Shown: positions 26,954-37,246 of the stretch, piece by piece
How the letters are laid out: each line of letters opens with the position of its first letter
Numbering within the stretch: position 1 is the stretch's first letter
Source: Gammaproteobacteria bacterium
Lineage (GTDB): Bacteria > Pseudomonadota > Gammaproteobacteria > DAOVJZ01
Reading direction: 5' to 3'
Length of the DNA: 38,922 bases
Assembly (NCBI GenBank): GCA_029882995.1
Contig: JAOUJV010000011.1
Coordinates: 1 to 38,922 of the forward strand
The notes under the pieces: generated by a model
What the model saw: only the letters and a program-made list of their open reading frames with translations
Databases searched by the model: none
Told to the model about the DNA's origin: nothing
Made by a program: the position numbers and the translations under genes

Positions 26954-27111
26954 CTAACAATCAATGTCATAAAAAGCCTCTAAATACAGGCTAAAACCCT
27001 ACTTAAATTCGTTCAAGAAGCCTCCAAACCCTACCGATATGTGAATCAGTTCACGCTGTAATGAGCTAAATGCAGGAAAAATGGACATGTCTTGGCGCTG
27101 TCCTAAACTCT

Positions 27112-27125
27112 GGCATGAATCATGC
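27112..27125 (+). promoter_or_regulatory. Sigma-54 (-24/-12) promoter of pilA
   Basis: tGGcatgaatcatGCa: GG-N10-GC spacing matches the -24/-12 consensus, between pilR and pilA. Confidence 0.85.
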
Positions 27126-27209
27126 AAAAGTAGTGACAGGCAACATCAGATTTCAGGTCATTTAATCAATCTGGCAAGCCTGAAAAATTTAAATAACAGG
27201 AGAAACATC

Positions 27210-27665
27210 ATGAAAAAAGTACAACAAGGTTTTACATTGATCGAACTCATGATCGTTGTTGCGATCATCGGTATTCTAGCAGCCATCGCGATTCCGGCTT
27301 ATCAGGATTACATTGCACGTGCTCAGGTAAGTGAAGCTATGTCACTAACTTCAGGACTTAAAACACCAATGGCTGAATACTATGCTGATCAAGGCGCGTG
27401 GCCTGCAGCAGTATCTACTGTAAGTGACATCCGGAATGGTAAGTATGTCTCCTATATAACCATAAATACTGGCGCAGGGGCGACATCGTCCTCTGTAATT
27501 TTAGAAGCTGTTATGAAAAATTCAGGTGTGTCTGCTCAATTGCAAGGCTTAAGTTTTGCTGTTGCTTCAGATGATGGCGGTAGCGCATGGGATTGTGGTG
27601 AAGTTGGTAGTGCCGCCGGTACTACAGACATACCTGCTAACCTGTTACCAGGTGCTTGTAAGTAA
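27210..27665 (+). CDS. pilA: Type IV major pilin PilA (start corrected from 27081)
   Basis: AGGAG RBS then [44 protein letters not shown], prepilin peptidase site G/FTLIE; C-terminal Cys pair. Confidence 0.96.
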
Positions 27666-27697
27666 CAAATTATTATTTGTCAGTAATTATGTAATCG

Positions 27698-27721
27698 CCC
27701 CGGCATTAGCCGGGGTTTTTT
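27698..27721 (+). terminator. Rho-independent terminator of pilA
   Basis: CCCCGGC-atta-GCCGGGG followed by TTTTTT. Confidence 0.95.
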
Positions 27722-27849
27722 ATTGTTTATTGTAAGCATTATTTTTATTCATATCGCTATAATCACATATCTTTATGTGATGTATTATACTGAATCAATT
27801 GTTAACTCAAACAAGACATATAAATTCAGGTATCCACTAATATATATTT

Positions 27850-29811
27850 ATGTTCCATATAGAAAACAAAAATCAGAGTCATACCTACTTATTAATCATT
27901 CTCACCATGATGAGTGTCTGGGTATTTTACCCTGGTCTTCTGGGTAGTTTTTTACTTGATGACTTTGCCAATCTACCCGCATTGAAAAAAATTGAAGGCA
28001 TTACCGATTGGGAGAATATATTATCCTTCATATTATCTGGAGAATCAGGGCCTTCTGGTCGTCCCATCAGCCTGCTAACATTTGCTTTACAAGCCAGTGC
28101 ATGGCCAACAAATCCGTTTCCCTTTAAGCTGGTCAATGTCCTTATTCACTTTATTAATGGTTTTTTAATTTATTTGCTTGTAGAACGTTTGCTCATATTC
28201 ATTAATTTTACTCATAATCAGGCAAAAAAATATTCGCTATTTATAACAGCAACTTGGCTGCTCCACCCCTTACAAATCAGTACAGTTTTCTATGTAGTAC
28301 AGCGCATGACCGAACTCTCTGCTCTGTTTACACTCAGCGGGCTTTTAATTTATCTGAAAGGAAGAACATATACGGAACCATGCGACAGGAATAAATCCTA
28401 TCTTTTAATGACTAGCGGTATTGGGATTGCTCTTTTACTAGGCACACTAAGTAAGGAAAATGCAATTCTTGCCTGCCTCTATATTGCAGTAATTGAGAGC
28501 ACTCTATTAAGACATATCCCGCGCCCAAGATATTGGTCTTTATGGGCCAGTATTTTTATTGCATTGCCTCTTATTATCCTTGCGGCATATTTGTTGCCAT
28601 CAATAATTAATCATATAGATACTAATTATCCTAACAGACCATTTAATGCATTTACCCGGCTTTTAACGGAATCCCGAGTAGTCACAGAATATTTAAAAAA
28701 TTTTTTCATCCCGCAACCATCACAAATTGGAATATTCCATTCGGACTATACCGTTTCACAAAATCTGTTCAATCCTGTCAGCACTCTGTTTTCTAGTATT
28801 TTTTTATTATCCCTGATTTTAATTGCCTTCGTCATAAGAAAAATATTTCCATTAATTTCTTTTGGTATTCTGTGGTTCTTTGCAGGGCACCTGCTTGAAT
28901 CAAGTGTAATTAGTCTTGAGTTATATTTTGAACATAGAAATTATATTCCACTATTAGGACCTGTTTTTTCCCTTATTGGTGTATTTACATACGCCAGAAA
29001 CTTTCTAAATAAGAAAGAACTCCCTATTGCTATAAAAACTATTCTGGCAGGCAGTGTGGTATGGATTGTGTTTCTTGTGGCTATAACTGCCAATGAATCA
29101 CGACTTTGGGGGAATCCAGTTCTGCAGGCAGCATCGTGGGCTGAACATCACCCCCACTCATATCGTGCACAGGGACACTATGCAGATATTTTAATAAGAT
29201 TAAAATACTATCAACAAGCAAAGAAGGTGCTAGAGGATAATTCCAAATCCTTTTCAGAAAACGCGACACACCTTCTTTTATGGTTGGACCTAACATGCCA
29301 AACAAATGAAGTTGAACCCCCAAATAGAGAACGATTGCTTAAAAGCCTTAGTAAATCAAAACATTTTAATGCCACATTTACTATATTGGATGAAATTATT
29401 ATTTTAAAAAATACTAATAAATGTGACAATGTATCTGAACAGTTCATAGAAAAAATAATACATATATTAAAAAACAACACTAATTACCAATCTCAAAAGG
29501 CCAGGCTGGCATTGCATACACTTGCAGCAAAGTTTTATGCTGGCTTCGAAAAATACCCGCAAGCTATTCAAGAAGCTAGCAACGCTTATCAAATCGCCCC
29601 CTCGGTGAACACATTGTTATTTACTGCTAATATACACCTCAAAAATAAATCTAAAATGTGGTATTTGCAAACACTTGATATTTTAGACCACTTTTGTCAG
29701 GAGTCTTTGATAAAATGCCTGCCTTTCAAGCAAGAAATAAGAAAACACCATATTATTCGTGATAAAATCAATAATATGGAAGGTAATTCAAAAGCTATAT
29801 CTAAATCCTGA
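27850..29811 (+). CDS. Multi-TM protein, candidate GT-C/TMTC-like glycosyltransferase with TPR-like C-terminus
   Basis: LLGSFLLDDFANLP (DD motif in first loop), FKLVNVLIHFINGFLIYLLVERLL, WLLHPLQISTVFYVVQRMTELSALFTLSGLLIYLKGR, LGTLSKENAIL as in TMTC-like proteins; C-terminal helical repeats. Confidence 0.7.
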   Translation: MFHIENKNQSHTYLLIILTMMSVWVFYPGLLGSFLLDDFANLPALKKIEGITDWENILSFILSGESGPSGRPISLLTFALQASAWPTNPFPFKLVNVLIHFINGFLIYLLVERLLIFINFTHNQAKKYSLFITATWLLHPLQISTVFYVVQRMTELSALFTLSGLLIYLKGRTYTEPCDRNKSYLLMTSGIGIALLLGTLSKENAILACLYIAVIESTLLRHIPRPRYWSLWASIFIALPLIILAAYLLPSIINHIDTNYPNRPFNAFTRLLTESRVVTEYLKNFFIPQPSQIGIFHSDYTVSQNLFNPVSTLFSSIFLLSLILIAFVIRKIFPLISFGILWFFAGHLLESSVISLELYFEHRNYIPLLGPVFSLIGVFTYARNFLNKKELPIAIKTILAGSVVWIVFLVAITANESRLWGNPVLQAASWAEHHPHSYRAQGHYADILIRLKYYQQAKKVLEDNSKSFSENATHLLLWLDLTCQTNEVEPPNRERLLKSLSKSKHFNATFTILDEIIILKNTNKCDNVSEQFIEKIIHILKNNTNYQSQKARLALHTLAAKFYAGFEKYPQAIQEASNAYQIAPSVNTLLFTANIHLKNKSKMWYLQTLDILDHFCQESLIKCLPFKQEIRKHHIIRDKINNMEGNSKAISKS

Positions 29812-29865
29812 TTATGCTATTGTTAAATAATTACAATATTCAAATAACTATATCCATGAGTTTCT

Positions 29866-30735
29866 ATGTCAAAAAATAAAAGAATCAATATCATTATTCC
29901 TGCGAAAAATGAGGAGGCAGGTCTAAAAAAGATTCTCCCCATAATCAGAGGAGTTGTACCCAATGCTGAGATTATTGTGGTTGATGACGCTTCTGATGAC
30001 TCTACTGCAAAAGTAGCAATAGAATCTGGCTGTAGAGTTATTACACACCCAAGAAATATGGGGAATGGTGCCAGCATTAAAACTGGTGCACGTAATGCAA
30101 ATGCAGACATACTTGTTTTTATGGATGCAGATGGGCAACATAATCCTGAAGACATACCCCTTCTTCTTGAAAAGCTGGAAGAAAATTATGATATGGTGAT
30201 CGGAGCAAGAAGCTTTGGTGGTCACAGTTCAATAGCTCGATTTACTGCTAATAATTTTTACAACAAACTTGCTTCCTTTATGACAGGATTCAAAATTGAT
30301 GATTTAACTTCTGGTTTCAGAGCTGTAAAAGCAGATAAATTCAAAAAATTTCTTTATCTCCTGCCGAACGGATTTTCATATCCAACTACTTCAACAATGG
30401 CTTTTTTTCGCTCGGGTTTCCCTGTAGCATATATTCCTATTAAAACATCACGCCGCGCAGGAACAAGTAAAATAAAATTACTTAAGGATGGTACTCGATT
30501 CTTTATCATTATCCTCAAAGTGGGAGCATTATTTTCTCCCATGCGCTTATTCCTCCCGATTAGCGCCTTTTTCTTTGCGATTGCCTGTATGTATTATGGC
30601 TACACTTATTTCACCGAGGGAAGATTTACCAATATGAGCGCGTTACTCTATATCACGTCAATTCTAACATTTCTTATTGGGATCGTTTCTGAACAAATTT
30701 CATCTCTTCACTATAAAAACACAGATGATATCTGA
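29866..30735 (+). CDS. GT2 glycosyltransferase, dolichyl/polyprenyl-phosphate sugar synthase-like, with C-terminal TM helices
   Basis: INIIIPAKNEEAGLKKILPII...EIIVVDDASDDST...DILVFMDADGQHNPEDIPLLLEKL...DMVIGAR; RAGTSKIKLLKDGTRFFIIILK; two TM helices at the end. Confidence 0.9.
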   Translation: MSKNKRINIIIPAKNEEAGLKKILPIIRGVVPNAEIIVVDDASDDSTAKVAIESGCRVITHPRNMGNGASIKTGARNANADILVFMDADGQHNPEDIPLLLEKLEENYDMVIGARSFGGHSSIARFTANNFYNKLASFMTGFKIDDLTSGFRAVKADKFKKFLYLLPNGFSYPTTSTMAFFRSGFPVAYIPIKTSRRAGTSKIKLLKDGTRFFIIILKVGALFSPMRLFLPISAFFFAIACMYYGYTYFTEGRFTNMSALLYITSILTFLIGIVSEQISSLHYKNTDDI

Positions 30736-30816: not shown

Positions 30817-32034
30817 ATGAAGAAGCTAAAAGTGCTGATGCTGACTTCCAGTTATCCAAAGAATGAGGATGACAATTCATCAATATTCCTGAAGTATTTA
30901 GCTGAATCCATAGCTGACAAGGACATTGACGTTACTATTCTTGCACCTGATCATGCTGACATTGCGAATAGAGACAGCGATTTTATAAATCACAGTATCA
31001 AGATTCACCATTTTCATTACCTGCCAAAGAAATTACAATTACTTGCATATGGCTCTGGAATCCTGCCAAATATTAAAAAACATCCTTTGTTAATTTTTCA
31101 GATACCGTTTTTTTTCTTCTCCATGCTATTTAGCCTGATAAACATTTGCATTAAATCAAAACCTGATATTATTCATGCTCACTGGATTATACCCCAAGGA
31201 CTAATCGCTGTTATTGTTGGTTCAATATTACGTATTCCTGTCATTACTACAGCACATGGTGCTGATGCTTATGCACTAAACAACAGGTTACTTAGCTCAA
31301 TAAAAAAATATGTTATTTCCAAAAGTCAGATCTGGACTTCCAATACCGCTTCTACGGCTAATGTTATCCAAATGGAAAAATCCAAACTAGTAATTATCCC
31401 TATGGGTGTGGATATTCAACAATTCTCTTCTGGAGATGCGACGGTATTACGAAGAAATATTGAGGAGGAGAATATTATTCTTTTTGTTGGTCGGCTAGTA
31501 GAAAAGAAGGGGGTACGATATTTAATAGAAGCCTTCAATAATCTAACTAATTCTGTTAAGTCACAATCCAAGCTATGGATTGTTGGAAGTGGCAATGAAT
31601 TATCTCTCCTACAAAAAATCATTGAGGATTATAAATTATCTGATTACATTAAGTTCTTTGGTGATATTAGTAATAAAGACCTTCCCAGCTACTATGCAGC
31701 AGCAGATATCTTTGTAGCACCATCCATTATAGATTCATCTGGTGATACAGAAGGGCAAGGAGTTGTGCTCATCGAAGCACTGGCAAGTAGAACTCCTGTT
31801 ATATCTACGAATACTGGTGGTATTCATGAGGTGATATCAAATAACAAGACGGGATTATTAGTGGAACCTGCACAACCAGAACAATTAGCAAAAGCGATAG
31901 AACAGCTTCTAAATAACTCCTTTCTTAAAAATAAAATGATTAAAAATGGATTTGATCATGTAACAAAAACATATGGTTGGTCTAATATCGCTGATAAATT
32001 TATATCTACATACTACTCAGTCGTAAATAAATAG
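30817..32034 (+). CDS. GT4 family glycosyltransferase (start 30817 preferred)
   Basis: MKKLKVLMLTSSYPKNEDDNSSIFLKYLAESIADKDIDVTILAP; ILFVGRLVEKKGVRYLIEAF; EGQGVVLIEALASRTPVISTNTGGIHEVI. Confidence 0.92.
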   Translation: MKKLKVLMLTSSYPKNEDDNSSIFLKYLAESIADKDIDVTILAPDHADIANRDSDFINHSIKIHHFHYLPKKLQLLAYGSGILPNIKKHPLLIFQIPFFFFSMLFSLINICIKSKPDIIHAHWIIPQGLIAVIVGSILRIPVITTAHGADAYALNNRLLSSIKKYVISKSQIWTSNTASTANVIQMEKSKLVIIPMGVDIQQFSSGDATVLRRNIEEENIILFVGRLVEKKGVRYLIEAFNNLTNSVKSQSKLWIVGSGNELSLLQKIIEDYKLSDYIKFFGDISNKDLPSYYAAADIFVAPSIIDSSGDTEGQGVVLIEALASRTPVISTNTGGIHEVISNNKTGLLVEPAQPEQLAKAIEQLLNNSFLKNKMIKNGFDHVTKTYGWSNIADKFISTYYSVVNK

Positions 32035-32035
32035 C

Positions 32036-32974
32036 CTAATCATCCTGCATATCCCTTCTTGAATAGAAAGTTCCAATCATAAATGAAGATGCGCTGACCG
32101 CCTTAACCAGGAACCGCTTAAAACTATTACTGTAATATTTACTCGAAATCACCATGCTACTCATGAAAATAAATGTCGGGAGTAGCATAATCATGATTTT
32201 GGACAATAATAGAAAACCAATTGGATGAATTCGCACATCAATTTTACTATAGGGCATTTCCAGATACCTCTTCAGATGGCTATCTATAAAATATTGTGAA
32301 GTATACCTTCCTGCTTCCATCATTTTTCTGGAGACAACTCTTAGATTTGAGTCTCCATCATGTAAAACAACAATATCAGGATTAAACGAGATATTTGCAT
32401 TTGTATCAAGAAGTCTTGCTATAAGATCACGATCTTCGAATCCATATTTTTTATATCTCTTATCAAACCCACCTAGTCTTTCAAACACACTACGCTTGAT
32501 AGCAAGATTTGCACTGGTAAGAACCAAGTAATTACACTCTTGCCCAGCCTCTCTAATCCGATTATGCTCGAGAAATCTAGTATAATCTCCCCAGAACCCC
32601 TTCTTTTCTGAAGACACTACACCAAAACTTACATCTGCACCTCTTTCTAGCGCCTGAATATGCGCGTATATAGCATCTTTGTCATAGAAAACACAATCTG
32701 AATCCATAAAAATAATATAATCAGAATCTGATTTTGATACACCGGTATTTATCGAATTCCCTCTACCCATATTTTCTTCATGTGTCACAATCTGTGCAAC
32801 ATCAGCCACTTTGGTATTTATATAATCAAGTGAATCCTTGCTGGAACCATCATTGACGACTATGATTTTCAAAATATATTCATCGCGTAATTGCTGTGAT
32901 AAAGCTGAGTTTACAGCCATCACAGCATTATAATGATTATTATAAAACGGAATAACTAAGGTAATTATCTGCAT
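32036..32974 (-). CDS. GT2 family glycosyltransferase
   Basis: VIPFYNNHYNAVMAVNSALSQ...IIVVNDGSSKDSLDY...IIFMDSDCVFYDKDAI; FGGFDKRYKKYGFEDRDLIARL-type motif. Confidence 0.9.
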   Translation of the reverse strand: MQIITLVIPFYNNHYNAVMAVNSALSQQLRDEYILKIIVVNDGSSKDSLDYINTKVADVAQIVTHEENMGRGNSINTGVSKSDSDYIIFMDSDCVFYDKDAIYAHIQALERGADVSFGVVSSEKKGFWGDYTRFLEHNRIREAGQECNYLVLTSANLAIKRSVFERLGGFDKRYKKYGFEDRDLIARLLDTNANISFNPDIVVLHDGDSNLRVVSRKMMEAGRYTSQYFIDSHLKRYLEMPYSKIDVRIHPIGFLLLSKIMIMLLPTFIFMSSMVISSKYYSNSFKRFLVKAVSASSFMIGTFYSRRDMQDD

Positions 32975-33000
32975 TATTCATCACTAGCAAAATGGATACA

Positions 33001-33951
33001 CTATGTCTTATTAGAACTCATTATGTATCTAATTTCACAAAATAGAGAATATAAATATTTTGCAATATATTTTATAACAAAAAATAAAAAGTCCATTATT
33101 ACGAACGGATTCTTTGCAAGGAGAGATATCGCCTTCATTCTATCACCATGTCGCATAATGAATATTTGACTTAGGCTCTTGATCGCATATGGAGAATTCC
33201 GCTTTAAGCCGTCATCTATAATATTAAAATATTCTCTCTTAAATCTATTATAGAAATTATTAGATAATTGGTTTGCATCACTGAATAGTTTTATTTGTTT
33301 GCTATATGAAAATGATGATGCATGGCATCTATATTTAAAAAGCACTTTATCTATATTAAAATAATTGTGAGGTATATATGCCGCCACCCAGAGCGCATAA
33401 TCTTCTGCGGCGCACCACTCACCAACAGTGCTGTATAAATATTTATCAAATACAGATCGCCGTATCATAACAGAGGCATGTGCGAATGGGACTGAGTAGG
33501 TTAATTTAAATAAAATATCATCTTTCTCTACTGGTGAAATTTCTATACCAATTTTATTTCCATTTGCGTCTATTTTTTCAAAATGACACCCCACAATATC
33601 TATATCTCTATTTTTATATAGAATACTGCATTGTTCTTCAATTCTTGTAGCATAAGAAACATCATCTGCATCCATTCTTGCAATATATTCGCCTTTCGAT
33701 CTCAATATCCCCTCATCAAGTGACTTTAACAACCCTTTATTACCTCTATCAATTACAGTAACACGCTCATCTCTTTTTATGTACTCGTTTATTATATGAA
33801 TGCTTCGATCTTTGGAACCATCATTGATAATAATAAATTCAATATTTTTATATGTCTGTCCTAAAATACTCTCAATTGCTTCTTTCAAATACTTTTCTCC
33901 GTTGTATACAGGCATTATTACCGATACAAGTGGAGAATTACCATTATCCAT
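33001..33951 (-). CDS. GT2 family glycosyltransferase
   Basis: PLVSVIMPVYNGEKYLKEAIESILGQTYKNIEFIIINDGSKDRS...GEYIARMDADDVS. Confidence 0.93.
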   Translation of the reverse strand: MDNGNSPLVSVIMPVYNGEKYLKEAIESILGQTYKNIEFIIINDGSKDRSIHIINEYIKRDERVTVIDRGNKGLLKSLDEGILRSKGEYIARMDADDVSYATRIEEQCSILYKNRDIDIVGCHFEKIDANGNKIGIEISPVEKDDILFKLTYSVPFAHASVMIRRSVFDKYLYSTVGEWCAAEDYALWVAAYIPHNYFNIDKVLFKYRCHASSFSYSKQIKLFSDANQLSNNFYNRFKREYFNIIDDGLKRNSPYAIKSLSQIFIMRHGDRMKAISLLAKNPFVIMDFLFFVIKYIAKYLYSLFCEIRYIMSSNKT

Positions 33952-34979
33952 TAAAACAACCCAATCTCTCTGAAAATATCATTAAAACGAATCTTATACG
34001 TATCGAAAGCGAGTACTTTCCTATTCCCCTGTTCTGCTATCTGCAATCTCTCAGCATCATGACTCAGGTAATAATTTATTTTAAAAATAAGATCTTCAAC
34101 CCCATAATACACTTGCAAGTCTTTTCCAATTAAAAAATGATCTTCAAGAAAAGGGACATAGTTCGTGAGCTGAAAGCCACCAGCACCACATATTTCAAAA
34201 TTTCTTGCCTTAATCTGTTCCCTTGATTTGTATTTGCCTTTGATTATATTCACCAGATAGCTTACCAATGGATATATCCCTGAAACCAAATAGTTTATAT
34301 TCTGACTCTGACTATTTGATATGTTCATATTTATTTTACTCTTTCGAAAGATATCTTCCATTTCCGGCATTGTTACTCGACCATTCTCCCACCCATACCC
34401 AAAGCAATTTACATGGATACCATTTCTCTCAAGCTGTTTCACAACCCAACTTCTATAATTATTCTTCTGCCCAATAAAACTTACTTCATAATCATAATCT
34501 GTTTTATGGACAGTTCGATCCGTATCGAATTTCGTACATCCATATGCCCATTGTGAAAGAATCGCATTGCCAATTCCATTAAGTTGATATTTTTTATATG
34601 CCAGCTTATCGGTTGTGATTGCATAATTCAGATGTGGTGCATATTTTTTTGAAAAATATTCAAATCGATATTGGTCGTCACAAAACCAATTCACTAAAAT
34701 GGTATCATCTTTGCTTTTTATATAATCCAAGGTGTCTGTGGTAATTTCGTCTTCAAACAAAACACAAAATACTAGTTCAGGTTTCTCAGTATCAACCATC
34801 TTAATAAAACGATCATTTGCTTCATTTTTTCCATATTTATTAAAAATAGATAAGACATCATATGTAATAACAATATCAAAATACTCGCGAAATACTGGCA
34901 GCAACGTTTCAGCCTCAAAGGACATTCCTCTGCTAGCATCGCCATAATCAATGAGAGGTGCGACAAATATAACTTTCAT
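33951..34979 (-). CDS. CgeB-like / group 1-type glycosyltransferase
   Basis: KPELVFCVLFEDEITTDTLDYIKSKDDTILVNWFCDD..., C-terminal NYVPFLEDHFLIGKDLQVYYGVEDLIFKINYYLSHDAERLQIAEQGNRKV as in CgeB-like proteins. Confidence 0.75.
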   Translation of the reverse strand: MKVIFVAPLIDYGDASRGMSFEAETLLPVFREYFDIVITYDVLSIFNKYGKNEANDRFIKMVDTEKPELVFCVLFEDEITTDTLDYIKSKDDTILVNWFCDDQYRFEYFSKKYAPHLNYAITTDKLAYKKYQLNGIGNAILSQWAYGCTKFDTDRTVHKTDYDYEVSFIGQKNNYRSWVVKQLERNGIHVNCFGYGWENGRVTMPEMEDIFRKSKINMNISNSQSQNINYLVSGIYPLVSYLVNIIKGKYKSREQIKARNFEICGAGGFQLTNYVPFLEDHFLIGKDLQVYYGVEDLIFKINYYLSHDAERLQIAEQGNRKVLAFDTYKIRFNDIFREIGLF

Positions 34980-35062
34980 TTTGGGTAAGTAATATTATAT
35001 TAATAATATAAATTTAATTATTATTGCTTCTATGTCAATTTAACATAGTCTTAACAATGCGA

Positions 35063-35764
35063 TTATTTCTTTTCAGCAACTACAAAATAACCAAAACACA
35101 ATGTATTCACAGCAACCTGATCATTATATTTTTGCTTAAGATAATAAAAACACATTGCGGGAAGTAGAAATAATTTTGCAAACAGACCATTTATTCCCAT
35201 TGTTCTGTAAATCTCAACCATCATCCATTTATAATAACTACCATAAGATATGATTTTGTAATTGGTGAAATTATATTTATCTAAAAAAAACTCCAGATAT
35301 CGGTCGCTATAACCGCTAGAAAAAAAATATGGATCCATATGACGCAAACAATTTGAAGGGACAGTCAGAATAAGCTTCCCACCAGACCTTAAGAGTCTTG
35401 AAAATTCATATAATGTTTCATTTGGATATGGAATATGCTCAAATACTTCTGTACATAATATTACATCAAAAAAATTATCTTCAGCATTGATATTCCAGAT
35501 ATCTGAAATGTAGTCAATTTCACCATACTGATACATTTCTTTATTTCCCGAAAAAGATCCTTGCTCATCTGTTGTATAAGCAGCAAAATCCTGAGCGTGA
35601 TATTCAAGATGTTCGCAGAACTGTCTATATCTCTGACTACCACATCCCGCATCAAGGATTTTAGAGCCATTAGCCAAACTTGATAACTGACTAGTAACCC
35701 AATTATCACGTTCATACTGATTATCCATGAATCGATTTATTCTGGATCTAGTATTCTTTAGCAA
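35063..35764 (-). CDS. Class I SAM-dependent methyltransferase
   Basis: SKILDAGCGSQRYRQFC...DVILCTEVFEHIPYPNETLYEFSRLLRSGGKLILTVP. Confidence 0.9.
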   Translation of the reverse strand: MLKNTRSRINRFMDNQYERDNWVTSQLSSLANGSKILDAGCGSQRYRQFCEHLEYHAQDFAAYTTDEQGSFSGNKEMYQYGEIDYISDIWNINAEDNFFDVILCTEVFEHIPYPNETLYEFSRLLRSGGKLILTVPSNCLRHMDPYFFSSGYSDRYLEFFLDKYNFTNYKIISYGSYYKWMMVEIYRTMGINGLFAKLFLLPAMCFYYLKQKYNDQVAVNTLCFGYFVVAEKK

Positions 35765-35794
35765 ATTATATATTCCCTTAGTAAAAAACAGATG

Positions 35795-37246
35795 TTATGA
35801 GAGTAATGCTTTCGATTTTTTAATAACAATAGTTGAATATGAGAAATATAAAATACTAGCCAAAACAATGAATATAACCATATAAGTCTTATCGTCTATT
35901 AGTAAATTAAATATGAGTAACATTGATATTGCTATAATTATAAACTGCAATATTTGTGGGAAATGTTGTAGTCTAATCTTTATATCCATATGTCTGCATA
36001 TCACCAAATGAAATACCCCTACGAACAATATCCCGGACACAATTAAGCCATAAAAAATACCTGCCTCACCATAAACAGATATCATGATTATCAGACCACC
36101 TATAATTGCTATTGAGCCAAGGATATAGGGAACCAAAATATATCTGGTTTCCATTGAGGCATGCACTCCAAGACCATATATTCCGCCTATTATCCGAAAT
36201 AATTCAACAATACAGCCTAACAGGAAATACTTCCATGCGGGGAAATATTGTTCTGTCATAAAAATAATAAATAATGGCTTTGATATTATTATAAGAAATA
36301 TGGATGAAAAAATTGTTAATGTAATTAAATGTTGTGAGTAGTCAGCCCATACTCTAGCTATATGCGATGGCCCATTGCTACTATTATTGACAGGTTTTTC
36401 TCCTAGCATCTTAAAAAAGGATGGATGATATAGTTGGCTAAGTGCTGATTCAAATGCTCCCATTATTCCTGAACTTAATGTGTAGCCAACCATAAAAAAA
36501 CCTAGCATTTCTAATGAAAACATATCTTCAATAATGAAACGATATGACTGGAACTGTATCCAGTGAAGTCCTATTGCTAATGCTAAAGGTCCAGAAAATA
36601 TTAGCATCTTTTTAATAATTGAAAAATTTATCTGATACTTTATGTTATCGCTACATATTACTTTTACATCAGTGTAAAAAAAATAATACGCAAAAATACT
36701 TCCTGCAAACATTCCAATGAATTGACCACCAATCCAAAAAAATGCACTAGGCGAATATTCTGTAGCTATCCAGGCAAAAAATAAACCTACCCATATTGTT
36801 ATCAACACAGATATCAGCCATTCAGTCCTCTTTTTTAACATGTTTACAAAATATGCAAGAATCTGACTGGCATTAGTTAAAAAAACACCCAACCCGACTA
36901 ATATAACCAATAAAACAAGTTCCACTCCCCAATTTTCACCCATAATTTTGCTTGTCGTATAAGTAATGCATGCCGCCAGTAAGGCAATCACAGCAATATA
37001 AATACCGAGGTAGTTCAAAAACCTGAAAGCAAAGCCAGAATCACGCAATGAAAAAAATCTCCTGTTATAATAGGCTGAAACAGGATTTATCATAAACATA
37101 GAAAAGAATGAAATTATTGTTGTTACTATAGCCACTACACCAATTTGTTCAGGACTCATCTGTATAGTTAAAACACGGACGACAAATAGAGAACTAATTG
37201 CTACGACAACCCTTCCCCCGACAACTCTAATAAGATCATTCCACAT
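35795..37246 (-). CDS. Polysaccharide/oligosaccharide flippase (Wzx-like, MOP superfamily)
   Basis: 483 aa, many TM segments; N-terminal VVVAISSLFVVRVLTIQMSPEQIGVVAIVTTIISFFSMF pattern typical of Wzx/oligosaccharide flippases. Confidence 0.82.
   Translation of the reverse strand: MWNDLIRVVGGRVVVAISSLFVVRVLTIQMSPEQIGVVAIVTTIISFFSMFMINPVSAYYNRRFFSLRDSGFAFRFLNYLGIYIAVIALLAACITYTTSKIMGENWGVELVLLVILVGLGVFLTNASQILAYFVNMLKKRTEWLISVLITIWVGLFFAWIATEYSPSAFFWIGGQFIGMFAGSIFAYYFFYTDVKVICSDNIKYQINFSIIKKMLIFSGPLALAIGLHWIQFQSYRFIIEDMFSLEMLGFFMVGYTLSSGIMGAFESALSQLYHPSFFKMLGEKPVNNSSNGPSHIARVWADYSQHLITLTIFSSIFLIIISKPLFIIFMTEQYFPAWKYFLLGCIVELFRIIGGIYGLGVHASMETRYILVPYILGSIAIIGGLIIMISVYGEAGIFYGLIVSGILFVGVFHLVICRHMDIKIRLQHFPQILQFIIIAISMLLIFNLLIDDKTYMVIFIVLASILYFSYSTIVIKKSKALLS

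Follow-up and report, generated by a model that had tools for sequence, protein, structure and literature searches.

The window analysed here, a 38,922-nucleotide stretch of gammaproteobacterial DNA, carries behind its pilin gene pilA a module that is probably a pilin-accessory glycosylation cassette, in which a DPM1/ArnC/GtrB-type GT2 would make a polyprenyl-phosphate sugar that, once flipped across the membrane, would be transferred to pilin by a GT-C protein with a TPR domain. With less confidence, but still on balance, we favour the wider reading that this module represents a widespread and undescribed pilin-specific class, characterized by a GT-C enzyme with a pilin-recognising periplasmic TPR domain, a dedicated synthase and interchangeable third genes that diversify the glycan, and forming a bacterial counterpart of the eukaryotic TMTC proteins. 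Pilin sugars control the binding of phages, recognition by the immune system and the assembly of pili, and sugar coating of pili by the GT-C/GT2 route probably occurs far more often than the handful of described cases suggests. If true, this would mean a further pilin glycosylation route in between about one fifth and one third of the sampled gammaproteobacterial genomes, with carriers that include environmental sulfur and methane oxidisers, some Acinetobacter and Pseudomonadaceae. The module would also offer a bacterial model for how GT-C enzymes that carry TPRs, human TMTC among them, choose their client proteins, and a compact two-gene tool to attach sugars to chosen proteins.

Organization of the pilA locus

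Following sucC/sucD, pilS and pilR, the plus strand of the window holds, in order, pilA, a terminator, and open reading frames for the 653-aa protein, a GT2 and a GT4 (Table 1). The start of pilA was placed at 27210 and not at 27081 on account of the sigma-54-type site and, following it, the Shine-Dalgarno-like AGGAG at approximately 27198. The pilA terminator is the strongest one in the region, and a gap of 54 bases separates the GT-C frame from the GT2 frame. The reading frames, their coordinates, the motifs, the GT2 with two C-terminal TM helices and the pilA terminator are all as the initial annotation had described them. On the minus strand, positions 32036–37246 are occupied by a separate glycan cluster, possibly for surface polysaccharide, that encodes three glycosyltransferases, two of them GT2s, along with a methyltransferase and a Wzx-like protein.

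Table 1 Features of the pilA locus in the window and loci of the sibling subfamilies
Feature	Position	Strand	Evidence or remark
Sigma-54-type (-24/-12) promoter element of pilA, TGGCATGAATCATGCA (GG-N10-GC)	27111..27126	+	Consensus match only; pilS/pilR just upstream
pilA, major pilin of type IVa, 151 aa with a leader, C-terminus GACK; proposed acceptor	27210..27665	+	Pfam Pilin 2.8e-17, N_methyl 1.5e-10
Rho-independent terminator separating pilA from the accessory genes	27697..27725 (stem-loop 27697-27716 and T run)	+	GCCCCGGCATTAGCCGGGGT-TTTTT
GT-C glycosyltransferase with periplasmic TPR domain (predicted), 653 aa; residues 1-424 GT-C, 425-653 TPR, conserved C483/C525	27850..29811	+	Profiles, predicted structure
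DPM1/ArnC/GtrB-type GT2, 289 aa, VVDD...DADGQH, with two TM helices at the C-terminus; putative synthase of a polyprenyl-phosphate sugar	29866..30735	+	
GT4 glycosyltransferase, possible third module gene	30817..32034 (ORF from 30799; ATG at 30817 likelier)	+	Pfam Glycos_transf_1 2.1e-48; putative role
Pseudomonadaceae sibling subfamilies	L188, L189, L193, L196 and L190-L192, L194, L195, L197		pilA-adjacent

Predicted GT-C fold and invariant residues

Pfam and NCBIfam scans of the 653-aa protein named nothing beyond a sub-threshold TPR, the C-terminus of this one protein scoring E 0.0057 in the Pfam scan. Matches to Cas9 and topoisomerase in the HMM scans were sub-threshold and spurious, and identity with PEP-CTERM/PrsT was rejected, the match being merely generic TPR (13 bits against a cut-off of 312). 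As phmmer with the single 653-aa sequence found no match in the PDB, profiles and fold comparison were used instead; a plasmid tblastn search also returned no match. The family alignment comprised 60 sequences, with relatives 28–37% identical to the window protein, and served as input for a full-length AlphaFold model (pLDDT 92.9, pTM 0.91). Foldseek with this model retrieved mostly TPR proteins at E > 0.001, OST/STT3, PglB and PilF also appearing, and since the search was swamped by TPR proteins it was redone with the N-terminal domain alone (residues 1–424; AlphaFold pLDDT 92.1). The top 13 PDB matches of the modelled domain were all GT-C enzymes at probability 0.99–1.00, the best folds being yeast and human STT3/OST, PglB and Pmt4 (TMq 0.52), and the first match outside GT-C stood at E 0.22 and probability 0.11. 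The fold-match E-values are modest (best GT-C match 8e-4, TM 0.40–0.52), so that the predicted GT-C class of the domain, as initially proposed, is secure and closer assignment within GT-C is not.

The motifs of the protein (FLLDDFANL, HPLQ...VQRMTELSALF and LSKENAIL) are not products of chance, since D37, D38, R71, H100, Q151, R152, K202, E203, E350, E361, H362, R363 and Y365 are invariant in 60/60 sequences at this low identity, D37 and D38 forming the acidic DD-type motif of the first extracytoplasmic loop. By comparison with the published analysis of TMTC proteins (PMC7801869), the positions of D37, D38, R71, K202, E203, E361, R363 and Y365 match TMTC contacts with donor, metal and phosphate, and the invariant DD, R, QR, KE and EHRxY positions correspond to TMTC motifs M1, M2, M4 and M7. 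The 653-aa protein could instead lack catalysis, its GT-C domain being a relic, and act like TfpY as a pilin chaperone or assembly factor: it holds the same cassette position as TfpX/Y/Z (PMC11841053), and TPR proteins such as PilF, which came up in the fold search, act in type IV pilus assembly. This is very unlikely, however, given that D37, D38, K202, E203 and R363, all residues of catalytic type, do not vary among 60 divergent sequences and that conservation extends to a GT2 of the type that makes donors.

TPR domain and membrane topology

The TPR-like C-terminus, which had been recognized initially from its pattern, was recovered by the family profile, which matches TPR proteins of the PDB at E 1e-24, and TPR_19 is matched in 20 of the 60 members. 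Helices were counted on the model with helix 267–286 taken as juxtamembrane, and this count places the TPR domain and every conserved motif on the periplasmic side. Over the 60 sequences, net positive charge is found in all six cytoplasmic loops and in no periplasmic loop, and the cysteines C483 and C525 of the TPR region occur together in 55/60 sequences and singly in 2/60. Helix parity, the loop charges and this cysteine pattern, which is that expected of a periplasmic disulfide, led us to take the TPR region as periplasmic, where it would probably serve as a platform for pilin recognition.

The GT2 partner and third genes

The GT2 belongs to PF00535 (E 1.9e-29), carries a DADG motif and two hydrophobic C-terminal helices, and by phmmer matches ArnC, DPMS and sll0501 in the PDB at 1e-14, so Pfam, NCBIfam and phmmer all support its annotation as a DPM1/ArnC/GtrB-type enzyme, with DPMS/ArnC/GtrB as its PDB relatives. 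It reaches no curated NCBIfam equivalog cut-off that would name its sugar (best AglJ, 111 bits against 325; PgfS, 80 against 500). There is no close paralogue in its own genome (next matches at E 1e-7 to 1e-8). The GT2 most likely makes the lipid-bound sugar of the GT-C protein.

In roughly twelve further loci the gene after the GT2 is a homologue of the window GT4 (cluster c3), and SAM methyltransferases and a WecB-type epimerase occur as other third genes. Next after the GT2 in three Acinetobacter loci and in Zhongshania (L077, L086, L095, L104) lies a PglK-like ABC exporter, whose best NCBIfam match, below the cut-off, is PglK, a lipid-linked oligosaccharide flippase. This exporter is a possible dedicated flippase of the module, and its presence as a third gene supports a lipid-linked donor; no GtrA-type flippase (PF04138) was matched in the window's own genome. 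The variety of third genes suggests a variable glycan, perhaps longer than one sugar. Accordingly, of the lipid-linked monosaccharide envisaged in the initial annotation, the DPM1-type GT2 is present, but further glycan genes are frequent and a single monosaccharide is not established. The same genome encodes four Wzy_C proteins of 420–481 aa, which were rejected as PglL-type enzymes, all being without the PglL_A/Wzy_C_2 domain, and the Wzy_C domain is matched neither in the 653-aa protein nor in the 60 family members.

From the computed fold, conserved residues, topology and co-conservation with pilin and GT2, we infer the donor, its flipping, the acceptor, TPR docking, the site and the sugar as follows. 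At the cytoplasmic face of the membrane, the GT2 would load polyprenyl phosphate with a sugar taken from a nucleotide donor, and the lipid-linked product, which the GT4 may lengthen, would be flipped to the periplasm. There the GT-C/TPR protein would transfer it to an internal Ser/Thr of the adjoining pilin before assembly, by means of D37/D38 of the first loop, while K202/E203 and the EHRNY loop would bind the donor phosphate and metal.

Distribution and linkage to pilin genes

The family was found in 29 of 94 relatives (~30%) sampled at nearly one genome per family of Gammaproteobacteria, in approximately 41/195 Pseudomonadales with a match covering the GT-C domain (E below 1e-70) and in approximately 17/399 Pseudomonadaceae. 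A scan of GTDB genomes found 584 relatives, from which 80 loci were kept, including those of Thiotrichaceae, Woeseiaceae, Methylococcales, Acinetobacter, Microbulbifer, Hahella, Rhodanobacter, Magnetococcales and Gallionellaceae. The samples lean towards the best-scoring relatives and share a few members, and the following counts are estimates. Immediately upstream of the GT-C gene and on its own strand, a pilin is present in 83 of 117 testable loci (46/71, 16/20 and 21/26 by sample, for loci with room) against 8 of 546 control ORFs of the same loci, and an orthologous GT2 lies directly downstream in 62 of 110 (~56%; 35/75, 7/10 and 20/25). Absence of a GT-C fold and absence of an association with pilins, two outcomes that the initial annotation named as counting against it, were thus looked for and not observed. 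Terminator-like hairpins occur in 35 of 63 pilin/GT-C gaps, against 1.2 expected from shuffles. About 29% of the testable loci are without a pilin directly upstream and about 44% without a GT2 directly downstream, the exceptions to pilin adjacency including isolated copies and those of Woeseiaceae, which still lie beside other pilus genes. These gaps weigh against the glycosylation reading, as do the GtrA-type flippase not matched in the window's genome and the lack of an obvious conserved Ser/Thr in the window pilA.

In Woeseiaceae (L049, L052, L069, L072, L075) the GT-C gene is convergent and stands not behind pilA, but beside an apparent pilB-pilC-pilD/coaE/zapD region, in which pilB-pilC-pilD were identified from gene size and order. 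In one further locus (L029, G035) the GT-C copy has many stop codons, the adjoining pilin being intact and the GT2 partly open, which is a natural loss of the system.

The linkage counts bear on two other readings of the cassette. Modification of lipopolysaccharide or exopolysaccharide by the GT-C/GT2 pair, with pilA adjacency arising from the clustering of glycan genes, would fit the GT4 and the opposite-strand glycan cluster with its Wzx-like protein that follow in the window, and DPM-type GT2/GT-C pairs elsewhere modify lipoteichoic acid (PMC5836110). We consider it unlikely, since pilin is the constant neighbour across genomes whereas other glycan genes vary, the layout is that of a terminator-spaced cassette, sibling GT-C families of Pseudomonas lie directly behind pilA, and a TPR docking domain fits a protein acceptor. 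A second role in surface polysaccharide, alongside that in pilin modification, is nevertheless possible given the opposite-strand cluster. The close linkage to one pilin gene, the tandem GT-C copies beside pilins and the substrate specificity of the known pilin-linked OTases TfpO, TfpM and PglS (PMC12645811) likewise make it distinctly improbable that the protein is a general periplasmic O-glycosylation enzyme, like PglL or TMTC, with pilin as one of many substrates, even though TMTC and PMT enzymes serve many clients, a TPR domain could bind varied ones and some copies lie away from pilin.

GT-C/TPR genes in tandem, two or three behind one pilin (L050, L073, L078, L091, L097, L110 and others), suggest several sites or sequential transfers. 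A C-terminal Ser is found in only 5 of 78 family-linked pilins, the window pilin ending in GACK, and TfpO-type attachment is therefore unlikely, as had been argued initially. No conserved internal Ser/Thr site was found among the linked pilins, and none is obvious in the window pilA, so that GAGATSSSV, named earlier as a likelier site, is only a possible one.

Comparison with known glycosylation systems

TfpW, the D-Araf pilin GT-C transferase of Pseudomonas aeruginosa/paraeruginosa group IV, is likewise a pilin-adjacent GT-C protein with an acidic first-loop motif, and its gene, as described, also follows pilA immediately, within a terminator-spaced pilin-accessory cassette. It uses a lipid-linked donor and modifies several internal Ser/Thr sites, and it is the only pilin GT-C transferase known to us. 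Unlike the window module, its D-Araf donor is made by a distant gene island and its cassette is without a DPM-type GT2. In Pseudomonas, a hallmark of pilin-accessory cassettes is the terminator that follows the pilin gene (PMC11841053).

The eukaryotic O-mannosyltransferases TMTC1–4 are likewise built of a GT-C domain and then TPRs that face the lumen or periplasm, and their motifs DD (first loop), RP, KE and E(H)RxxY recur in part, whereas the window family is bacterial, pilin-linked and provided with its own GT2 in the operon. In the family, DD and KE are invariant and RP nearly so, M7 reads EHRNY and not ERxxY, and the DW of M5 was not seen, column 298 being D/E in 57/60 sequences and S in the window protein. 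The initial description as TMTC-like holds for the GT-C/TPR layout and in part for the key motifs, but the Pfam TMTC/DUF1736 family is matched in none of the 60 members at E 0.01. Uncharacterised prokaryotic full-length TMTC homologues have been mentioned in the TMTC analysis (PMC7801869).

CsbB-GtcA-YfhO, GtlA-GtlB and GtrABS are comparable systems of paired genes, in which a GT2 makes a polyprenyl-phosphate sugar and a GT-C protein transfers it outside, but their acceptor is teichoic acid or O-antigen, a GtrA-type flippase is present and TPR is lacking. The Pgf system of Streptococcus mutans (PgfS, PgfM1/M2) also combines a DPM-like GT2 and membrane proteins in one operon to modify surface proteins, its substrates being Gram-positive adhesins and not pilin; the window GT2 matches PgfS of NCBIfam at E 2e-22, below the cut-off. 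TfpO/PilO, TfpM, PglS and PglL glycosylate pilin in the periplasm, often from within the pilin cassette, but are Wzy_C/WaaL-like enzymes transferring oligosaccharides en bloc, and TfpO/TfpM use a C-terminal Ser/Thr that is absent in the window pilin. A 2025 review of O-glycosylation lists four O-OTase classes, namely TfpO, TfpM, PglS and PglL (PMC12645811). In the open literature searched, the TPR-bearing family and its pairing with a GT2 were not found described. GT-C glycosylation of pilin is already known from TfpW, and what is new here, as far as the literature was searched, is the TPR-bearing family and the GT2 pairing.

Sibling families in Pseudomonadaceae

The weaker matches in Pseudomonadaceae (mostly E 1e-9 to 1e-20) are further pilA-adjacent GT-C proteins that fall into two subfamilies (Table 1), with a TPR C-terminus detectable in most and hhalign probabilities of 99.5–99.6 against the 653-aa family. 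No GT2 was detected beside their genes within the short flanks examined. The 653-aa family thus stands alongside other subfamilies of pilin-linked GT-C proteins, and the pilin-linked GT-C/TPR enzymes hence make up a broad group. The initial annotation, which had seen a candidate for an undescribed system in a single window, is overall partly supported: the observation is confirmed, but the family is one of several such subfamilies across many genomes. TfpW may belong to this broad group, and the siblings are candidates for a wider TfpW group.
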